64,000 nucleotides of DNA from an uncultured Paracoccaceae bacterium (GTDB lineage Bacteria > Pseudomonadota > Alphaproteobacteria > Rhodobacterales > Rhodobacteraceae), in assembly GCA_913062865.1 (NCBI GenBank), contig CAJXWO010000002.1, positions 1 through 64,000 on the forward strand, in the 5' to 3' direction. This document shows positions 32,011 to 38,318 of the stretch, in pieces (positions within the stretch are counted from its first letter, which is position 1; the number at the start of each line of letters is the position of its first letter). A model generated the notes under the pieces. It searched no databases and was not told the DNA's origin. It saw only the letters and a list, made by a program, of their open reading frames with translations. The position numbers and the translations under genes were made by a program.

Positions 32011-32768
32011 GGGTGGGCCTCAACGGATAGGGACAGGCGAGCGCGGCGCGTGACGGAGCCGTCGCCCTGGGCCGCGATGCGGTCGATGGCGGTCTGCATC
32101 GGCTCATACGCGACGGCCATGTGATAGGCGTTGGCATGCAGGATCGTGTCCGGGCCCGCTACCCAGGCCACATGCCCCTTCCAAAAGATCAGATCGCCCC
32201 GGCGCATCGGGGTGTCGGCATCCAGCGTTTCGCCCAACGCGGTCTCTTGCGGGCCGCTGTCACCCGGACAAGCGATGCCGCAGGCCGTACAGGCCAGTTG
32301 CACGAGCCCGGAACAGTCGATGCCCCAGCGCGAATTGCCGCCCCAGAGGTAGGGTGTGCCCAACAGGCGCTCGGCCACGGCCACGGGATCAGGTTCGGAC
32401 GTGAGGTCGCGCAGATGCGGATGTGGGACAAAGCCCAGCGGGGTCTCCCAAAAGCGGCCGGTGTCGCCGATCACCTGAAGCCGAGCGCCGAGGCTGAGCG
32501 CCATACGCTCGGGCGATTTGAAATCGGGGGCGCTGTAGACATGGGTCGCGGGAGCCGACACGCAGTGGGTTGGGGTGATGACAGGGCCAAGCGTTTCGGC
32601 GGCGACCCAGCCCTCGTATCCATCCAGATCGGCCCGCACCCGCGCCCAGATACCGTCACGGTCCAGCACAGCGACCGGCGCCCCCAGAAGCAATTGCCGC
32701 GCGCGGGGGCCATCCGGCTCCTCGCGCAGATCGACCAGCGGCGCCGCGATGCAGGCCGCGTCGGTCAC
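32007..32768 (-). CDS. NlpC/P60 family C40 peptidase
   Basis: 253 residues with no clear signal peptide. Two SH3-like segments (about 5-60 and 65-120, WVAAETLG and FVPHPHL) precede a papain-like NlpC/P60 domain. The catalytic cysteine lies in RWGIDCSGLVQLAC and the histidine in WKGHVAWV. The family cleaves gamma-D-Glu-diamino-acid bonds in murein peptides, such as those produced in wall recycling. Overlaps both flanking genes by four bases. Confidence 0.92.
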   Translation of the reverse strand: MTDAACIAAPLVDLREEPDGPRARQLLLGAPVAVLDRDGIWARVRADLDGYEGWVAAETLGPVITPTHCVSAPATHVYSAPDFKSPERMALSLGARLQVIGDTGRFWETPLGFVPHPHLRDLTSEPDPVAVAERLLGTPYLWGGNSRWGIDCSGLVQLACTACGIACPGDSGPQETALGETLDADTPMRRGDLIFWKGHVAWVAGPDTILHANAYHMAVAYEPMQTAIDRIAAQGDGSVTRRARLSLSVEAHP

Positions 32769-34150
32769 AGATCAAGCGCCACAGGCAGGGTGGCCAGCAA
32801 GGCGCGCGCCCCTTGCATGACGCCACCCTTGGTGCGGGCGGGCGCGGGCTGGGGCTGCCAGCCGTAGATGTCGAAATGGGTATAGCTGGGCGTGTCGGTC
32901 ACGAACCGGCGCAGGAACAGTGCTGCGGTGATCGCGCCGCCGAACCCGCCCTTTGGCGCATTGTCGAGATCCGCGATACCCGGTTCGATCAGGGGCTCAT
33001 AGGCCTCGTGGAAAGGCAGCCGCCAGCACGGATCTGCCGTTGTCTCACCCGCCGCCGCCAACGCGCCCGCCACGGTTTCGTCCGTTGTGAAGAACGGCGC
33101 GATATCCGGACCAACAGCCACGCGCGCGGCACCGGTCAGCGTGGCCATGGACACGATCATGTCGGGCGTGTCCTCGTCCGCCAGCGCCAAAGCATCGGCC
33201 AGCACCAGCCGCCCCTCGGCATCGGTGTTGTTGATCTCGACCGTCAGCCCCTTGCGCGACTGCAGGATATCCTGCGGGCGGAAGGCAGCACCGGACACGC
33301 TGTTCTCCACCGCAGGCACCAGCACGCGCAATCGAATAGGCAGGTTCAGCGCCATGATGATCTGCGCGAGGCCCAGGACTGTGGCGGCCCCGCCCATGTC
33401 CTTTTTCATCAACCCCATGGAGGCGCCGGGTTTGAGGTTGAGCCCCCCGGTGTCGAAACAGACCCCCTTGCCCACCAGCGTCAGGCGTGGGCCGGTGCTG
33501 CCCCAGCGCATGTCGATGAGCCGCGGCGCGCGGTCGGCGGCGCGACCCACGGTGTGGATCATCGGAAGGTTCTTATCCAAAAGGTCATCCCCGGTCGTGA
33601 CCTCAATCTCGGCCCCATGCGCTTCGGCCAGAAGCCGCGCGGCCTCTTCGAGATTGTCGGGCCCCATGTCGCTGGCGGGCGTGTTGATGAGATCGCGGGT
33701 CAGCGCCTCGCCTTCGGCCAGGATCTCGATCTTGGCCGCGTCGACACCCTCTGGCGCGACAAGCCGCGCGGCCGGTGCCGTCTGGTCACGGTAGCGGTCA
33801 AAGACATACCCCGTCAAAAGCCAGCCCAGCGTTTCCTGCTCGGCCATTTCCGGCGGCAGCCCGGAGGCGATCTGGTAGGTGCCCGCCGGAAGGGACGCCG
33901 CCCCCGCCGCAAGCACAAAACGCGTCCGGGATCGCTGTGCCGCCGTGCCGTAGCCCACGGCCGCCGCCAAGGGTTGGCCATCGGACCCGGGCAACACCAC
34001 GCGTTCGCCGATGGCGCCGGAAAAGCCCTGTGCGCCCACCCAGGTCCGGGCCGCGTCGTCCAGTGTTTCGCACCAGGCATCAAGCTCGCTCATCTCGACA
34101 AGGTGCAGCGGCAACGCCGCCTCGGACTTGTCTGCAAAGCGCAACTGCAT
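32765..34150 (-). CDS. M17-family leucyl aminopeptidase
   Basis: 461 residues. Metal and catalytic motifs are VGKGVCFDTGGLNLKPGASM, MKKDMGGAA and NTDAEGRLVLADAL, which define the M17 catalytic domain. The N-terminal domain is shorter than in PepA and the protein is nearer PepB size. It liberates N-terminal residues from peptides in the cytoplasm. First gene of the four-gene minus-strand operon; it would act with the NlpC/P60 enzyme on murein or other peptides. Confidence 0.92.
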   Translation of the reverse strand: MQLRFADKSEAALPLHLVEMSELDAWCETLDDAARTWVGAQGFSGAIGERVVLPGSDGQPLAAAVGYGTAAQRSRTRFVLAAGAASLPAGTYQIASGLPPEMAEQETLGWLLTGYVFDRYRDQTAPAARLVAPEGVDAAKIEILAEGEALTRDLINTPASDMGPDNLEEAARLLAEAHGAEIEVTTGDDLLDKNLPMIHTVGRAADRAPRLIDMRWGSTGPRLTLVGKGVCFDTGGLNLKPGASMGLMKKDMGGAATVLGLAQIIMALNLPIRLRVLVPAVENSVSGAAFRPQDILQSRKGLTVEINNTDAEGRLVLADALALADEDTPDMIVSMATLTGAARVAVGPDIAPFFTTDETVAGALAAAGETTADPCWRLPFHEAYEPLIEPGIADLDNAPKGGFGGAITAALFLRRFVTDTPSYTHFDIYGWQPQPAPARTKGGVMQGARALLATLPVALDL

Positions 34151-34800: not shown

Positions 34801-35451
34801 ATGGACCACGCGCGCCCGCTGCCAAGCTATCTGGTTACACGGTATCACGGCTGGAAAGCCACGACATATGCCGACAACCAGATGTGGTATCGCAAGCTTG
34901 CAACCGAAGGCCAGCATCCGCGCGCGATGGTCATCTCCTGCTGCGACTCGCGGGTGCATGTCACCTCGATCTTCGGAGCCGATCAGGGCGAATTCTTCCT
35001 GCATCGCAACATCGCGAACCTTGTCCCGCCCTACCTGCCCAATGGGCAGAAACGGGGCACTTCGGCCGCGCTGGAATACGCGGTGCGGATCCTGAAAGTG
35101 GCCCATGTCATCGTCATGGGGCATTCGAATTGCGGCGGTGTGCAGGGCTGCCTCGACATGTGCCGTGGCGATGCACCTGAACTGGACGAGCCCGAAAGCT
35201 TCATCGGGCGGTGGCTCGACATCCTGCGCCGCGGCTACGAGCGTGTGGCCGACGAGCCCGACCGCGACCGGCAGATGCGCGCGCTCGAGCAACAGGCGGT
35301 GATCGTGTCGCTTGAGAACCTGATGACCTTTCCCTTCGTGGCCGACGGTGTCGCGGCCGGCACGCTCAGCCTGCACGGGCTTTGGAAAGACATCGGTGAA
35401 GGCCAGCTTGAGTATTTCAATTCGGCCGACCAGGCCTTCCGCCCGGTCTGA
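34801..35451 (+). CDS. Beta-class carbonic anhydrase
   Basis: 216 residues from ATG at 34801, with GAGGGA upstream; the longer track ORF is an extension. Zinc ligands are the Cys of ISCCDSRV, and the His and Cys of MGHSNCGG; the Asp-Arg dyad of the first motif is intact. It interconverts CO2 and bicarbonate in the cytoplasm. The next two genes in the same direction encode a putative bicarbonate transporter and its PII-type regulator, which places the enzyme in inorganic carbon supply. Confidence 0.95.
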   Translation: MDHARPLPSYLVTRYHGWKATTYADNQMWYRKLATEGQHPRAMVISCCDSRVHVTSIFGADQGEFFLHRNIANLVPPYLPNGQKRGTSAALEYAVRILKVAHVIVMGHSNCGGVQGCLDMCRGDAPELDEPESFIGRWLDILRRGYERVADEPDRDRQMRALEQQAVIVSLENLMTFPFVADGVAAGTLSLHGLWKDIGEGQLEYFNSADQAFRPV

Positions 35452-35487
35452 GGACCATTCCGTTGCCCGTCTTCCCGGAGAGACCCC

Positions 35488-36453
35488 ATGCTTGATCTGG
35501 CCCTCGCAAATTTGCTGTCGCCCATCGTTCTGTCCTTTGCGTTGGGGCTGTTTGCAGCGCTGGTCCGGTCCGACCTGACAGTGCCCGAGGCCGCGGCAAA
35601 GGCCTTGTCGATCTACCTGCTTTTCGCGATCGGTTTCAAAGGCGGGGTCAGCGTGTCCGATCACGGGATCGACGGACTCCTCGCGCTGTCGTTGCTGACC
35701 GGTGTTATCCTGTCGGCACTGCTGCCGCTGATCGCCTTTGCCTTGATCCGCGTGATGAGCGGGCTGTCAACGCTGGATGCGGCGGCCGTGGCAGGGCATT
35801 ATGGGTCGATCTCGATCGTGACCTTCGTGGCCGCGACCTCGGTTCTGCAAGGGGCCGGGATCACCTCCGAAGGGTTCATGGTGGCCGTGGCCGCCGCGAT
35901 GGAGGCACCGGCGATCCTGTCCGCGCTCTGGCTCGTGTCGCGGGGCGAGAAATCGGGGCGGATGGACGCGGATCTCTGGCGTGAAATCCTGTTCAACGGC
36001 TCGATCGTGCTGCTTCTGGGCAGCTTCGCCATCGGCTGGATCACCGGAGACGAGGGGCTGGACAAGATCAGCGCTTTCATCGTGGCCCCGTTCCAGGGCG
36101 TTCTTTGCCTGTTCCTGCTGGACATGGGCCTGATCGCCGGGCGCGGCCTGCGCAGCGGGGCCGGTCTGTCGGCGGGTCTTTTCGGCTTTGGCGTTCTCAT
36201 GCCGGTGATCGGGAGCATGATCGGGCTGGGTGCGGGCGTCTTGATCGGGCTGAGCACGGGGGGCGTGCTGTTGCTGATGGTGCTGTCGGCCTCGGCCTCT
36301 TACATTGCGGTGCCAGCTGCAATGCGGGTGGCACTGCCCGAGGCGAACCCGTCGATCTACCTGACATTGTCGCTGGGCGTGACATTCCCGTTCAACCTGA
36401 CACTTGGCATCCCGCTCTATCTGTGGGCGGCGCAACTCGTGACCGGAGGCTGA
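35488..36453 (+). CDS. sbtA: SbtA-family sodium-dependent bicarbonate transporter
   Basis: 321 residues and about ten membrane helices, the normal architecture of the SbtA/DUF897 family. Recognisable segments are the two inverted repeats beginning SIYLLFAIGFKGGV and GVLCLFLLDMGLIAG, and the conserved AAAVAGHYGSISIVTF and SASASYIAVPAAMR near the substrate site. The family imports bicarbonate with Na+ in cyanobacteria. It lies 36 bases after a carbonic anhydrase gene and 4 bases before a PII-like gene. Function by homology and context is strong; the ion has not been shown here. Confidence 0.9.
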   Translation: MLDLALANLLSPIVLSFALGLFAALVRSDLTVPEAAAKALSIYLLFAIGFKGGVSVSDHGIDGLLALSLLTGVILSALLPLIAFALIRVMSGLSTLDAAAVAGHYGSISIVTFVAATSVLQGAGITSEGFMVAVAAAMEAPAILSALWLVSRGEKSGRMDADLWREILFNGSIVLLLGSFAIGWITGDEGLDKISAFIVAPFQGVLCLFLLDMGLIAGRGLRSGAGLSAGLFGFGVLMPVIGSMIGLGAGVLIGLSTGGVLLLMVLSASASYIAVPAAMRVALPEANPSIYLTLSLGVTFPFNLTLGIPLYLWAAQLVTGG

Positions 36454-36457
36454 AAAG

Positions 36458-36769
36458 ATGGACACACACAAGGCCAAGCGCGTGGAAATCATCATCGAGG
36501 CGGTGATGGCCAGCCGTCTGACCAACGCACTCGAAAAGGCGGGGGTCAGAGGCTACAGCATGCTGCCTGTGCTGGGCGGCACCGGGCGCTCGGGGACATG
36601 GAGCCGCGCCGGCCAGGTCGGCCGTGGCGAAGGCATGGTGCAGGTGGTTTGCCTGATCCGGCCCGAACGTTTGGACGGGTTGCTGGATGCGGCGTTTTCG
36701 GTGGTCGAAAAGCATATCGGCGTGGTGTCGATCACCGATTGCGAAGTGCTGCGTGCCGAGCGGTTTTAA
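36458..36769 (+). CDS. SbtB-like PII family regulator
   Basis: 103 residues of the ferredoxin-like PII fold (RVEIIIEAVMASRLTNALEKAGVRGYSMLPVLGG...). The T-loop region GTGRSGTWSRAGQVGRGEGM is of the SbtB/carboxysomal PII type, not that of GlnB, which carries a uridylylated tyrosine. It follows sbtA by four bases. In cyanobacteria SbtB binds adenine nucleotides and gates SbtA, and the same role is expected here. Confidence 0.88.
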   Translation: MDTHKAKRVEIIIEAVMASRLTNALEKAGVRGYSMLPVLGGTGRSGTWSRAGQVGRGEGMVQVVCLIRPERLDGLLDAAFSVVEKHIGVVSITDCEVLRAERF

Positions 36770-36803
36770 CCGTGGTCTAACCGGGATCGGCCCAGCCCGA
36801 AGG

Positions 36804-37232
36804 ATGGCCGAGCCAGTGACCCCGCCCCTTTATCGGCAATTGAGTGCCCATGCCTTGGCCCGGGCGTGCGAGATCTCGATCCAGCAGCTTCTGAAAGATG
36901 CGCTTCGGTCCGAGATCGTGCGCGCGCAGACCACTGCAAAGACGCCCAACAGGGCGGATGCGCGGCTCGTCGCGTGCGTTCAGCGGCTGCTCGCCCCAGA
37001 CATGACCGCCATATAGAGATGGGCGGACCTGCACGCGCGCCTGGCCCGACACGGTGTCGAACTGCGCCTAGCAAGCGGCGGCCTCACCCTGCACCGCCAA
37101 ACGGGCGGGCAACGCTTGTGCGAAGCCTCAGAGCTGAGCTTTGCCTATACCCAACTTGTTCGGCGCTTCGGGGCGCCGATGCCGGATCATCCGCACCGGA
37201 TGGACCAGTTGCGACCGACCAAAAACGCCTAA
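36804..37232 (+). pseudogene. Relaxase/mobilisation-type gene interrupted by an in-frame TAG
   Basis: One frame from ATG at 36804 to TAA at 37230-37232 is broken only by TAG at 37014-37016. The first part (70 codons) ends LLAPDMTAI. After the stop the same frame reads RWADLHARLARHGVELRLASGGLTLHR...LCEASELSFAYTQLVRRFGAPMPDHP. The second part has the W-LxxrLxxhG / GGGL / CKASELG...RFGAPFP pattern that I associate with short alphaproteobacterial proteins and relaxase-like C-termini. It has no good ribosome site. Probably a decayed gene from a mobile element. Confidence 0.55.
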
Positions 37233-37295
37233 CCCCCGCCGCCACAGGACGACGGGGATTTCGAAGTGATCGCGCGGGTCTATACAGCGAGAGCC

Positions 37296-38318
37296 TCAGC
37301 CCTTTTTGAGCACCCGTGTGCCCAGCGTCTCGGCGATCTGAACGGCATTCAGCGCGGCACCCTTGCGCAGGTTGTCCGACACGACCCAGATGTTCAGACC
37401 GTTCTCGATCGTGCCGTCCTGGCGGATCCGGCTGATGAAGGTCGCATAGTCGCCCACGCATTCCACCGGCGTGACGTAGCCGCCGTCTTCGCGCTTGTCG
37501 ATCACCATGCAGCCGGGTGCCTCGCGCAGGATGTCGCGCGCCTCGTCCTCGTCCAGGAAATCCTCGAACTCGATATTGATCGCCTCGGAATGGCCCACGA
37601 AGACCGGCACGCGCACACAGGTCGCGGTGACCTTAATGGCCGTATCGACGATCTTTTTCGTCTCGGCGACCATCTTCCATTCTTCCTTGGTCGAGCCGTC
37701 TTCCATGAAGACGTCGATATGCGGGATCACGTTGAACGCAATCTGCTTCTGGAACTTCTTGGCCGGCACATCGTCGGTCGGGTTATAGACCGACTTGGTC
37801 TGGTCCCAGAGCTCGTCGATCCCCTCTTTGCCAGCACCCGACACGGATTGGTAGGTCGACACGACGACGCGCTTGATGCGCGCCCGGTCATGGAGCGGTT
37901 TGAGCGCCACCACCATCTGCGCGGTCGAGCAGTTGGGGTTGGCGATGATGTTCTTCTTGGCGTAGCCCTCGACCGCCTCGGGATTGACCTCGGGCACCAC
38001 GAGCGGCACGTCAGCGTCGTACCGATACAGCGATGAATTGTCGATCACCACGCAGCCTGCCGCGGCGGCCTTGGGCGCGTAGACCTTGGTTGCGTCCGAC
38101 CCGATGGCGAACAACGCCATGTCCCAGCCTGTAAAGTCGAACGTGTCGAGATCCTGGGTGGTGAGTGTCTTGTCGCCAAAGCTCACCTCGGTTCCCAGCG
38201 ACCGGCGCGAGGCAAGCGCCGCGATCTCGTCGACGGGGAACTGGCGCTCGGCCAGGATGTTCAGCATTTCGCGGCCCACGTTGCCCGTGGCGCCGACAAC
38301 GGCGACTTTGTAGCCCAT
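37296..38318 (-). CDS. asd: Aspartate-semialdehyde dehydrogenase
   Basis: 340 residues from ATG at 38318, with GAAGGAGAGCC upstream; the track ORF is a long extension. It reduces aspartyl phosphate to aspartate semialdehyde for lysine, diaminopimelate, threonine and methionine. NADP-binding GATGNVG at the N-terminus, active-site cysteine in NPNCSTAQ (about 131), and the acyl-binding YQSVSGAGKEG and GHSEAINIEF regions are intact. Single gene, convergent with the interrupted frame upstream in coordinates. Confidence 0.97.
   Translation of the reverse strand: MGYKVAVVGATGNVGREMLNILAERQFPVDEIAALASRRSLGTEVSFGDKTLTTQDLDTFDFTGWDMALFAIGSDATKVYAPKAAAAGCVVIDNSSLYRYDADVPLVVPEVNPEAVEGYAKKNIIANPNCSTAQMVVALKPLHDRARIKRVVVSTYQSVSGAGKEGIDELWDQTKSVYNPTDDVPAKKFQKQIAFNVIPHIDVFMEDGSTKEEWKMVAETKKIVDTAIKVTATCVRVPVFVGHSEAINIEFEDFLDEDEARDILREAPGCMVIDKREDGGYVTPVECVGDYATFISRIRQDGTIENGLNIWVVSDNLRKGAALNAVQIAETLGTRVLKKG

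Follow-up and report, generated by a model that had tools for sequence, protein, structure and literature searches.

The window analyzed here, a stretch of 64,000 nucleotides from the draft genome of an uncultured Paracoccaceae bacterium, carries on one strand a β-carbonic anhydrase gene, a gene for an SbtA-family transporter and a gene for a PII-like protein, separated by measured gaps of 36 and 4 bases, respectively (Table 1). The sequence-only reading had described a unidirectional trio of β-carbonic anhydrase, SbtA-like transporter and SbtB-like regulator with this spacing, and both the coordinates and the Pfam matches bear that description out. The gene identities likewise stand at the level of the protein family, but the specific labels SbtA and SbtB apply only in part, because two of the residues that contact bicarbonate and the C-terminal Cys motif of SbtB are missing, and because the PII-like protein is closer to CPII of Thiomonas than to SbtB. 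A promoter scan returned a single weak site, on the opposite strand, and was uninformative. Between the cassette and the neighboring asd gene, the plus strand of the window at 36800-37240 holds a frame broken by a stop that resembles a gene remnant, and the ORF at 36687-37013 gave no Pfam or NCBIfam match.

Table 1. Genes of the cassette and its two flanking markers, in window coordinates.
Feature	Position	Strand	Supporting match
β-carbonic anhydrase, 216 aa	34801..35451	+	Pfam Pro_CA 5.9e-44 (34801-35448)
Sbt_1 (SbtA-family) transporter, 321 aa, SASASYIAVPAAM subfamily	35488..36453	+	Pfam Sbt_1 2e-114 (35488-36450)
PII-like protein, 103 aa, presumed transporter regulator	36458..36769	+	Pfam P-II 3.2e-13 (36458-36766)
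M17 leucyl aminopeptidase, flanking synteny marker, outside cassette	32765..34150	-	Pfam Peptidase_M17
Aspartate-semialdehyde dehydrogenase (asd), flanking synteny marker, outside cassette	37296..38318	-	Pfam Semialdhyde_dh/dhC

The carbonic anhydrase has both active-site motifs of the β class, Cys-x-Asp-Ser-Arg and His-x-x-Cys, intact (CCDSRV from residue 47 and GHSNCGG from residue 107), and its closest solved structures are the plant/algal-type enzymes 1ddz and 1ekj. Alignments with its orthologues begin at residue 1 and thereby support the start at 34801; the longer frame from 34468 that a mechanical call provides finds no support in these alignments and is unneeded. As no signal sequence is evident in the N-terminus when read by eye, the enzyme is most likely cytosolic. 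It is the one Pro_CA match in its own assembly (86% complete), and an orthologue is present in about 130 of the 150 genomes, one per genus, that make up our sample of the family, which argues that this is the housekeeping β-carbonic anhydrase of the family and that the SbtA-PII pair is its optional partner. Neither half strictly requires the other. The SbtA-PII pair persists in G149, where the carbonic anhydrase is reduced to a stump of 26 residues (L046:4641-4718), in G063, where the gene is broken (L049:2595-2991), and in G140, where none lies beside SbtA, and none of these three genomes yielded another Pro_CA gene; conversely, the SbtA genes of G021 and G087 are broken and the carbonic anhydrase is intact. 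The first three genomes raised the idea that SbtA might replace a lost carbonic anhydrase. Across the 150 genomes SbtA is not enriched where β-carbonic anhydrase is absent (3 of 17 without the enzyme against 33 of 133 with it, p=0.76), and such replacement is thus no general rule.

The transporter, of the SbtA family TC 2.A.83, spans the Sbt_1 domain at full length (308 of 308 positions) and matches the structure of Slr1512 SbtA (7cye) at 5.1e-21. In a docking model of Slr1512, Ser114, Tyr140, Ser324 and Ser327 contact bicarbonate, and alanine mutants at each of these positions retain 10-40% of transport (PMC8352866). By alignment in Slr1512 numbering, the subfamily to which the window protein belongs keeps Ser114, Ser322 and Ser324, but every member has Ala in place of Tyr140 and Ser327, these being Ala135 and Ala274 of the window protein, and Tyr in place of Asp325, such that two of the four contact residues are altered. 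By its sequence, the protein is therefore a transporter of a known kind within a distinct SbtA subfamily, and given the two alanines bicarbonate is best regarded as its presumed substrate. In Microcystis, an SbtA-like protein with weak similarity, perhaps of a different subfamily, reportedly does not compensate for SbtA (PMC11890772). Many proteins annotated as SbtA bicarbonate transporters belong to the window subfamily, with an anion pocket unlike that of the experimentally tested SbtA, and some caution is in order when these annotations are used.

The third protein has a PII fold, as judged by its Pfam match and its predicted structure (pLDDT 84.8), and like SbtB it is encoded next to the transporter gene. 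Its best profile match is CPII of Thiomonas (1.6e-12), followed by SbtB, and the predicted fold ranks the two in the same order; the CPII structure in question was solved with ADP, AMP and bicarbonate. The CGPxGC redox motif that some SbtB proteins carry at the C-terminus is absent, the cassette PII proteins ending in LRAERF instead. A putative T-loop, GGSGRSGxWSREGQ, is highly conserved within the family, as would be expected for a part that binds a partner.

Gene order was surveyed in 80 loci of named relatives, the best of at least 590, and the fractions that follow apply to close relatives only. PII directly follows SbtA in all 80, which argues that the arrangement is not a product of chance. 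A carbonic anhydrase of the cassette type lies upstream within 300 bases in 29 of the 80, a further 3 have it some 620-760 bases away, and in another 10 the PII gene is followed by a different carbonic anhydrase (about 40% identity), mainly in Roseibium/Labrenzia and Thalassospira but also in Hyphomicrobiales and others. About half of these best 80 loci hence have a carbonic anhydrase directly on one side or the other, and the use of two different enzymes indicates that carbonic anhydrase has been coupled to SbtA-PII on two separate occasions. The M17 aminopeptidase recurs as a neighbor in about 30 of the same 80 loci and asd in 28, which marks the cassette as an old resident of its locus. In the family sample, 19 of the 36 genomes that carry the cassette-type SbtA have a carbonic anhydrase directly upstream, on the same strand and within about 140 bases.

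The sequence-only reading placed this cassette in a probable heterotroph, having seen no RuBisCO or carboxysome gene. The absence is real within the window and does not extend to the genome, where the search for RuBisCO which that reading had proposed found form I cbbL and cbbS on another contig, C1, with the only RuBisCO large subunit of the assembly. The 33 kb read there (C1:62000-95000) hold a complete α-carboxysome/Calvin operon comprising these two genes, csoS2, csoSCA, csoS4A, csoS4B and csoS1, an acRAF-like pterin dehydratase, a NUDIX protein, a second Sbt_1 transporter and a second PII-like protein. Beyond the cso genes lie a LysR regulator, FBPase, phosphoribulokinase, transketolase, GAPDH, PGK and aldolase, and on the opposite flank another LysR gene, FdhD and a formate-dehydrogenase-like FdhA. 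The same 135-kb contig carries gyrA at a distance of 40 kb, mostly 76-86% identical to that of family genomes, and its GC content and tetranucleotide usage agree with those of the window (r 0.79-0.88). With the operon complete and both gyrA and composition in accord, the host is a genetically competent Calvin-cycle organism with α-carboxysomes, and its description as a plain heterotroph is ruled out; a complete carbon fixation pathway was what the sequence-only reading itself had named as grounds for refutation. A third Sbt_1 gene, of the cyanobacterial type, is located on C49 (L007:1017-2102), divergent from a LysR gene and with no PII gene adjoining; this copy retains all four bicarbonate-contact residues, and the copy in the carboxysome operon has Met and Val at the Tyr140 and Ser327 positions. 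A literature search for carboxysomes in Rhodobacteraceae or Rhodobacterales, and for SbtA in Roseobacter, yielded nothing useful.

If the cassette were part of a carbon-concentrating mechanism (CCM), a link to RuBisCO or carboxysomes would be anticipated, and none was found. Orthologues of the cassette-type SbtA (56-79% identity) occur in 36 of the 150 family genomes and form I RuBisCO, taken as a PF00016 match below 1e-110, in 26, and only 4 genomes have both (4 of 36 against 22 of 114, Fisher p=0.32). Nor does an association appear when all PF00016 matches are counted (12 of 36 against 42 of 114, p=0.84), the weaker of which, left unsorted, comprise other forms as well as RuBisCO-like proteins. 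CsoS2 was found in 1 of the 150 genomes, and in 2 of a wider set of 397. The sole other carboxysome genome among the 397, G178, is clean and 99% complete and has the same operon, its cbbL being 95% identical to that of the host; no Sbt_1 gene was found in its whole genome. With carboxysomes present here where Sbt_1 is missing, and the cassette present in genomes that lack cso genes, the two evidently occur independently. In G178 the place of the SbtA-PII pair in the operon (L137:2262-8137) is occupied by a DabB-like protein, an unidentified ORF, DabA and a PII-like gene. This is an apparent exchange of transporter modules at a single position, and it suggests that different inorganic-carbon transporters can occupy the slot interchangeably, each accompanied by a PII protein.

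Given that the carboxysome operon possesses an SbtA-PII pair of its own, and that the cassette is mostly found in relatives without form I RuBisCO, we lean towards a reading in which the window cassette is a general bicarbonate module of the family that does not supply RuBisCO, the operon on C1 being a separate CCM. The cassette would be an old, vertically retained feature of Rhodobacteraceae and their relatives. Its SbtA-family protein may import bicarbonate together with sodium, and the cytosolic β-carbonic anhydrase would equilibrate CO2 and bicarbonate and so let metabolic CO2 join the same pool, from which acetyl-CoA carboxylase, carbamoyl-phosphate synthetase and the anaplerotic carboxylases, as ordinary bicarbonate-using enzymes, could be fed. 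The PII-like trimer might sense the adenylate state, perhaps also bicarbonate, and plug the transporter when there is no demand for it. The α-carboxysome operon with its own pair would serve RuBisCO, a division of labor among the SbtA copies that we propose from their genomic setting. The earlier suggestion of anaplerotic supply or pH control survives to the extent that a role outside the CCM is the best reading; its ground is a different one, as the genome does contain RuBisCO. Several points tell against this reading. The two altered contact positions, Tyr140 and Ser327, matter for transport in Slr1512; the Microcystis protein reportedly does not stand in for SbtA; SbtA is not enriched in genomes without β-carbonic anhydrase; and a cytosolic carbonic anhydrase beside a transporter that imports bicarbonate tends to run down the pool so built up, a combination that reviewers have called "curious" (PMC10880623).

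It is conceivable, though we think it unlikely, that the cassette works outward, with the carbonic anhydrase hydrating metabolic CO2 and the PII-gated transporter exporting bicarbonate or a formate-like anion in the service of pH or of the balance between CO2 and formate. Such a direction would account for the coupling of a cytosolic carbonic anhydrase to the transporter, and the fixation of all three pocket changes throughout the subfamily is consistent with it. Shewanella SO_3758, the best studied relative with the SASYIA motif and by motif the nearest experimentally handled relative of the window protein, affects formate tolerance: an A269T mutant confers tolerance, the wild type suffices in Zymomonas, and the authors find that modeling fits efflux better (PMC12093963). 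The FdhA/FdhD cluster adjoining the cso operon of the host also points towards formate. However, the transport direction of SO_3758 was inferred and not measured, no formate gene adjoins the window cassette, and the motif is shared by the SbtA of this very host's carboxysome operon, where inward transport of bicarbonate is expected. The broader proposition, that the widespread CA-SbtA-PII subfamily as a whole consists of PII-gated exporters of bicarbonate or a formate-like anion, fed by the coupled carbonic anhydrase, and not of importers, is more doubtful still. Were it true, a CCM part would have been reversed for CO2, pH or formate balance alongside true carboxysomes with a separate SbtA-PII pair.

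A further alternative is that the cassette forms a second arm of the CCM and delivers bicarbonate to the host carboxysomes, since complete α-carboxysomes and three Sbt_1 genes reside in one cell and all three transporters could raise a single cytosolic bicarbonate pool. We regard this as improbable. A cytosolic β-carbonic anhydrase short-circuits a CCM, and the one encoded here would do so; moreover, the cso operon brings its own pair, G178 has carboxysomes with no Sbt_1 gene, and orthologues of the cassette are common in genomes that lack RuBisCO and carboxysomes. Finally, it is very improbable that the cso operon derives from a contaminating contig, which would make the host a heterotroph: the assembly is a fragmented draft (2.79 Mb, 104 contigs) and family genomes very seldom carry CsoS2, but estimated contamination is 0.47%, and gyrA, composition and the same operon in a clean second genome largely refute C1 as a contaminant.

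The reading of the cassette as a general bicarbonate module would separate two things that are often lumped together, namely SbtA-PII as a part of the CCM and SbtA-PII with carbonic anhydrase as a general bicarbonate module in bacteria that lack a Calvin cycle. This host holds both kinds, and each pair could consequently be removed singly in one cell.

Among known systems, the cyanobacterial pair Slr1512-Slr1513 likewise has a PII-like gene directly after Sbt_1 and shares Ser114, Ser322 and Ser324 with the window transporter. It differs in the three pocket positions described above and in that the window PII lacks CGPxGC, the pair is joined to a β-carbonic anhydrase and no tie to RuBisCO is seen. 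CPII of Thiomonas intermedia, a carboxysome-associated PII-like protein, is the best match of the window PII in both sequence and fold, yet identity is about 28% and the window gene lies outside a carboxysome operon. The pair in the host's own carboxysome operon also combines Sbt_1 with a PII-like gene and has the SASASYI motif of the window SbtA; in contrast, it is linked to csoS genes and has no β-carbonic anhydrase, its SbtA is 39% identical to that of the window, and its PII has hardly any BLAST similarity to the window protein. Sbt-family transporters are also on record in heterotrophs that lack a Calvin cycle, namely SAR11 IIIa/LD12, Ca. Phycosocius, marine Flavobacteriia and Shewanella (SO_3758), and such genes have usually been read as anaplerotic (PMC10008586, PMC10030771). 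An anaplerotic reading of Sbt genes in heterotrophs is accordingly not new; the available portions of those accounts do not describe the CA-SbtA-PII trio, and the host examined here differs from these organisms in having carboxysomes as well.
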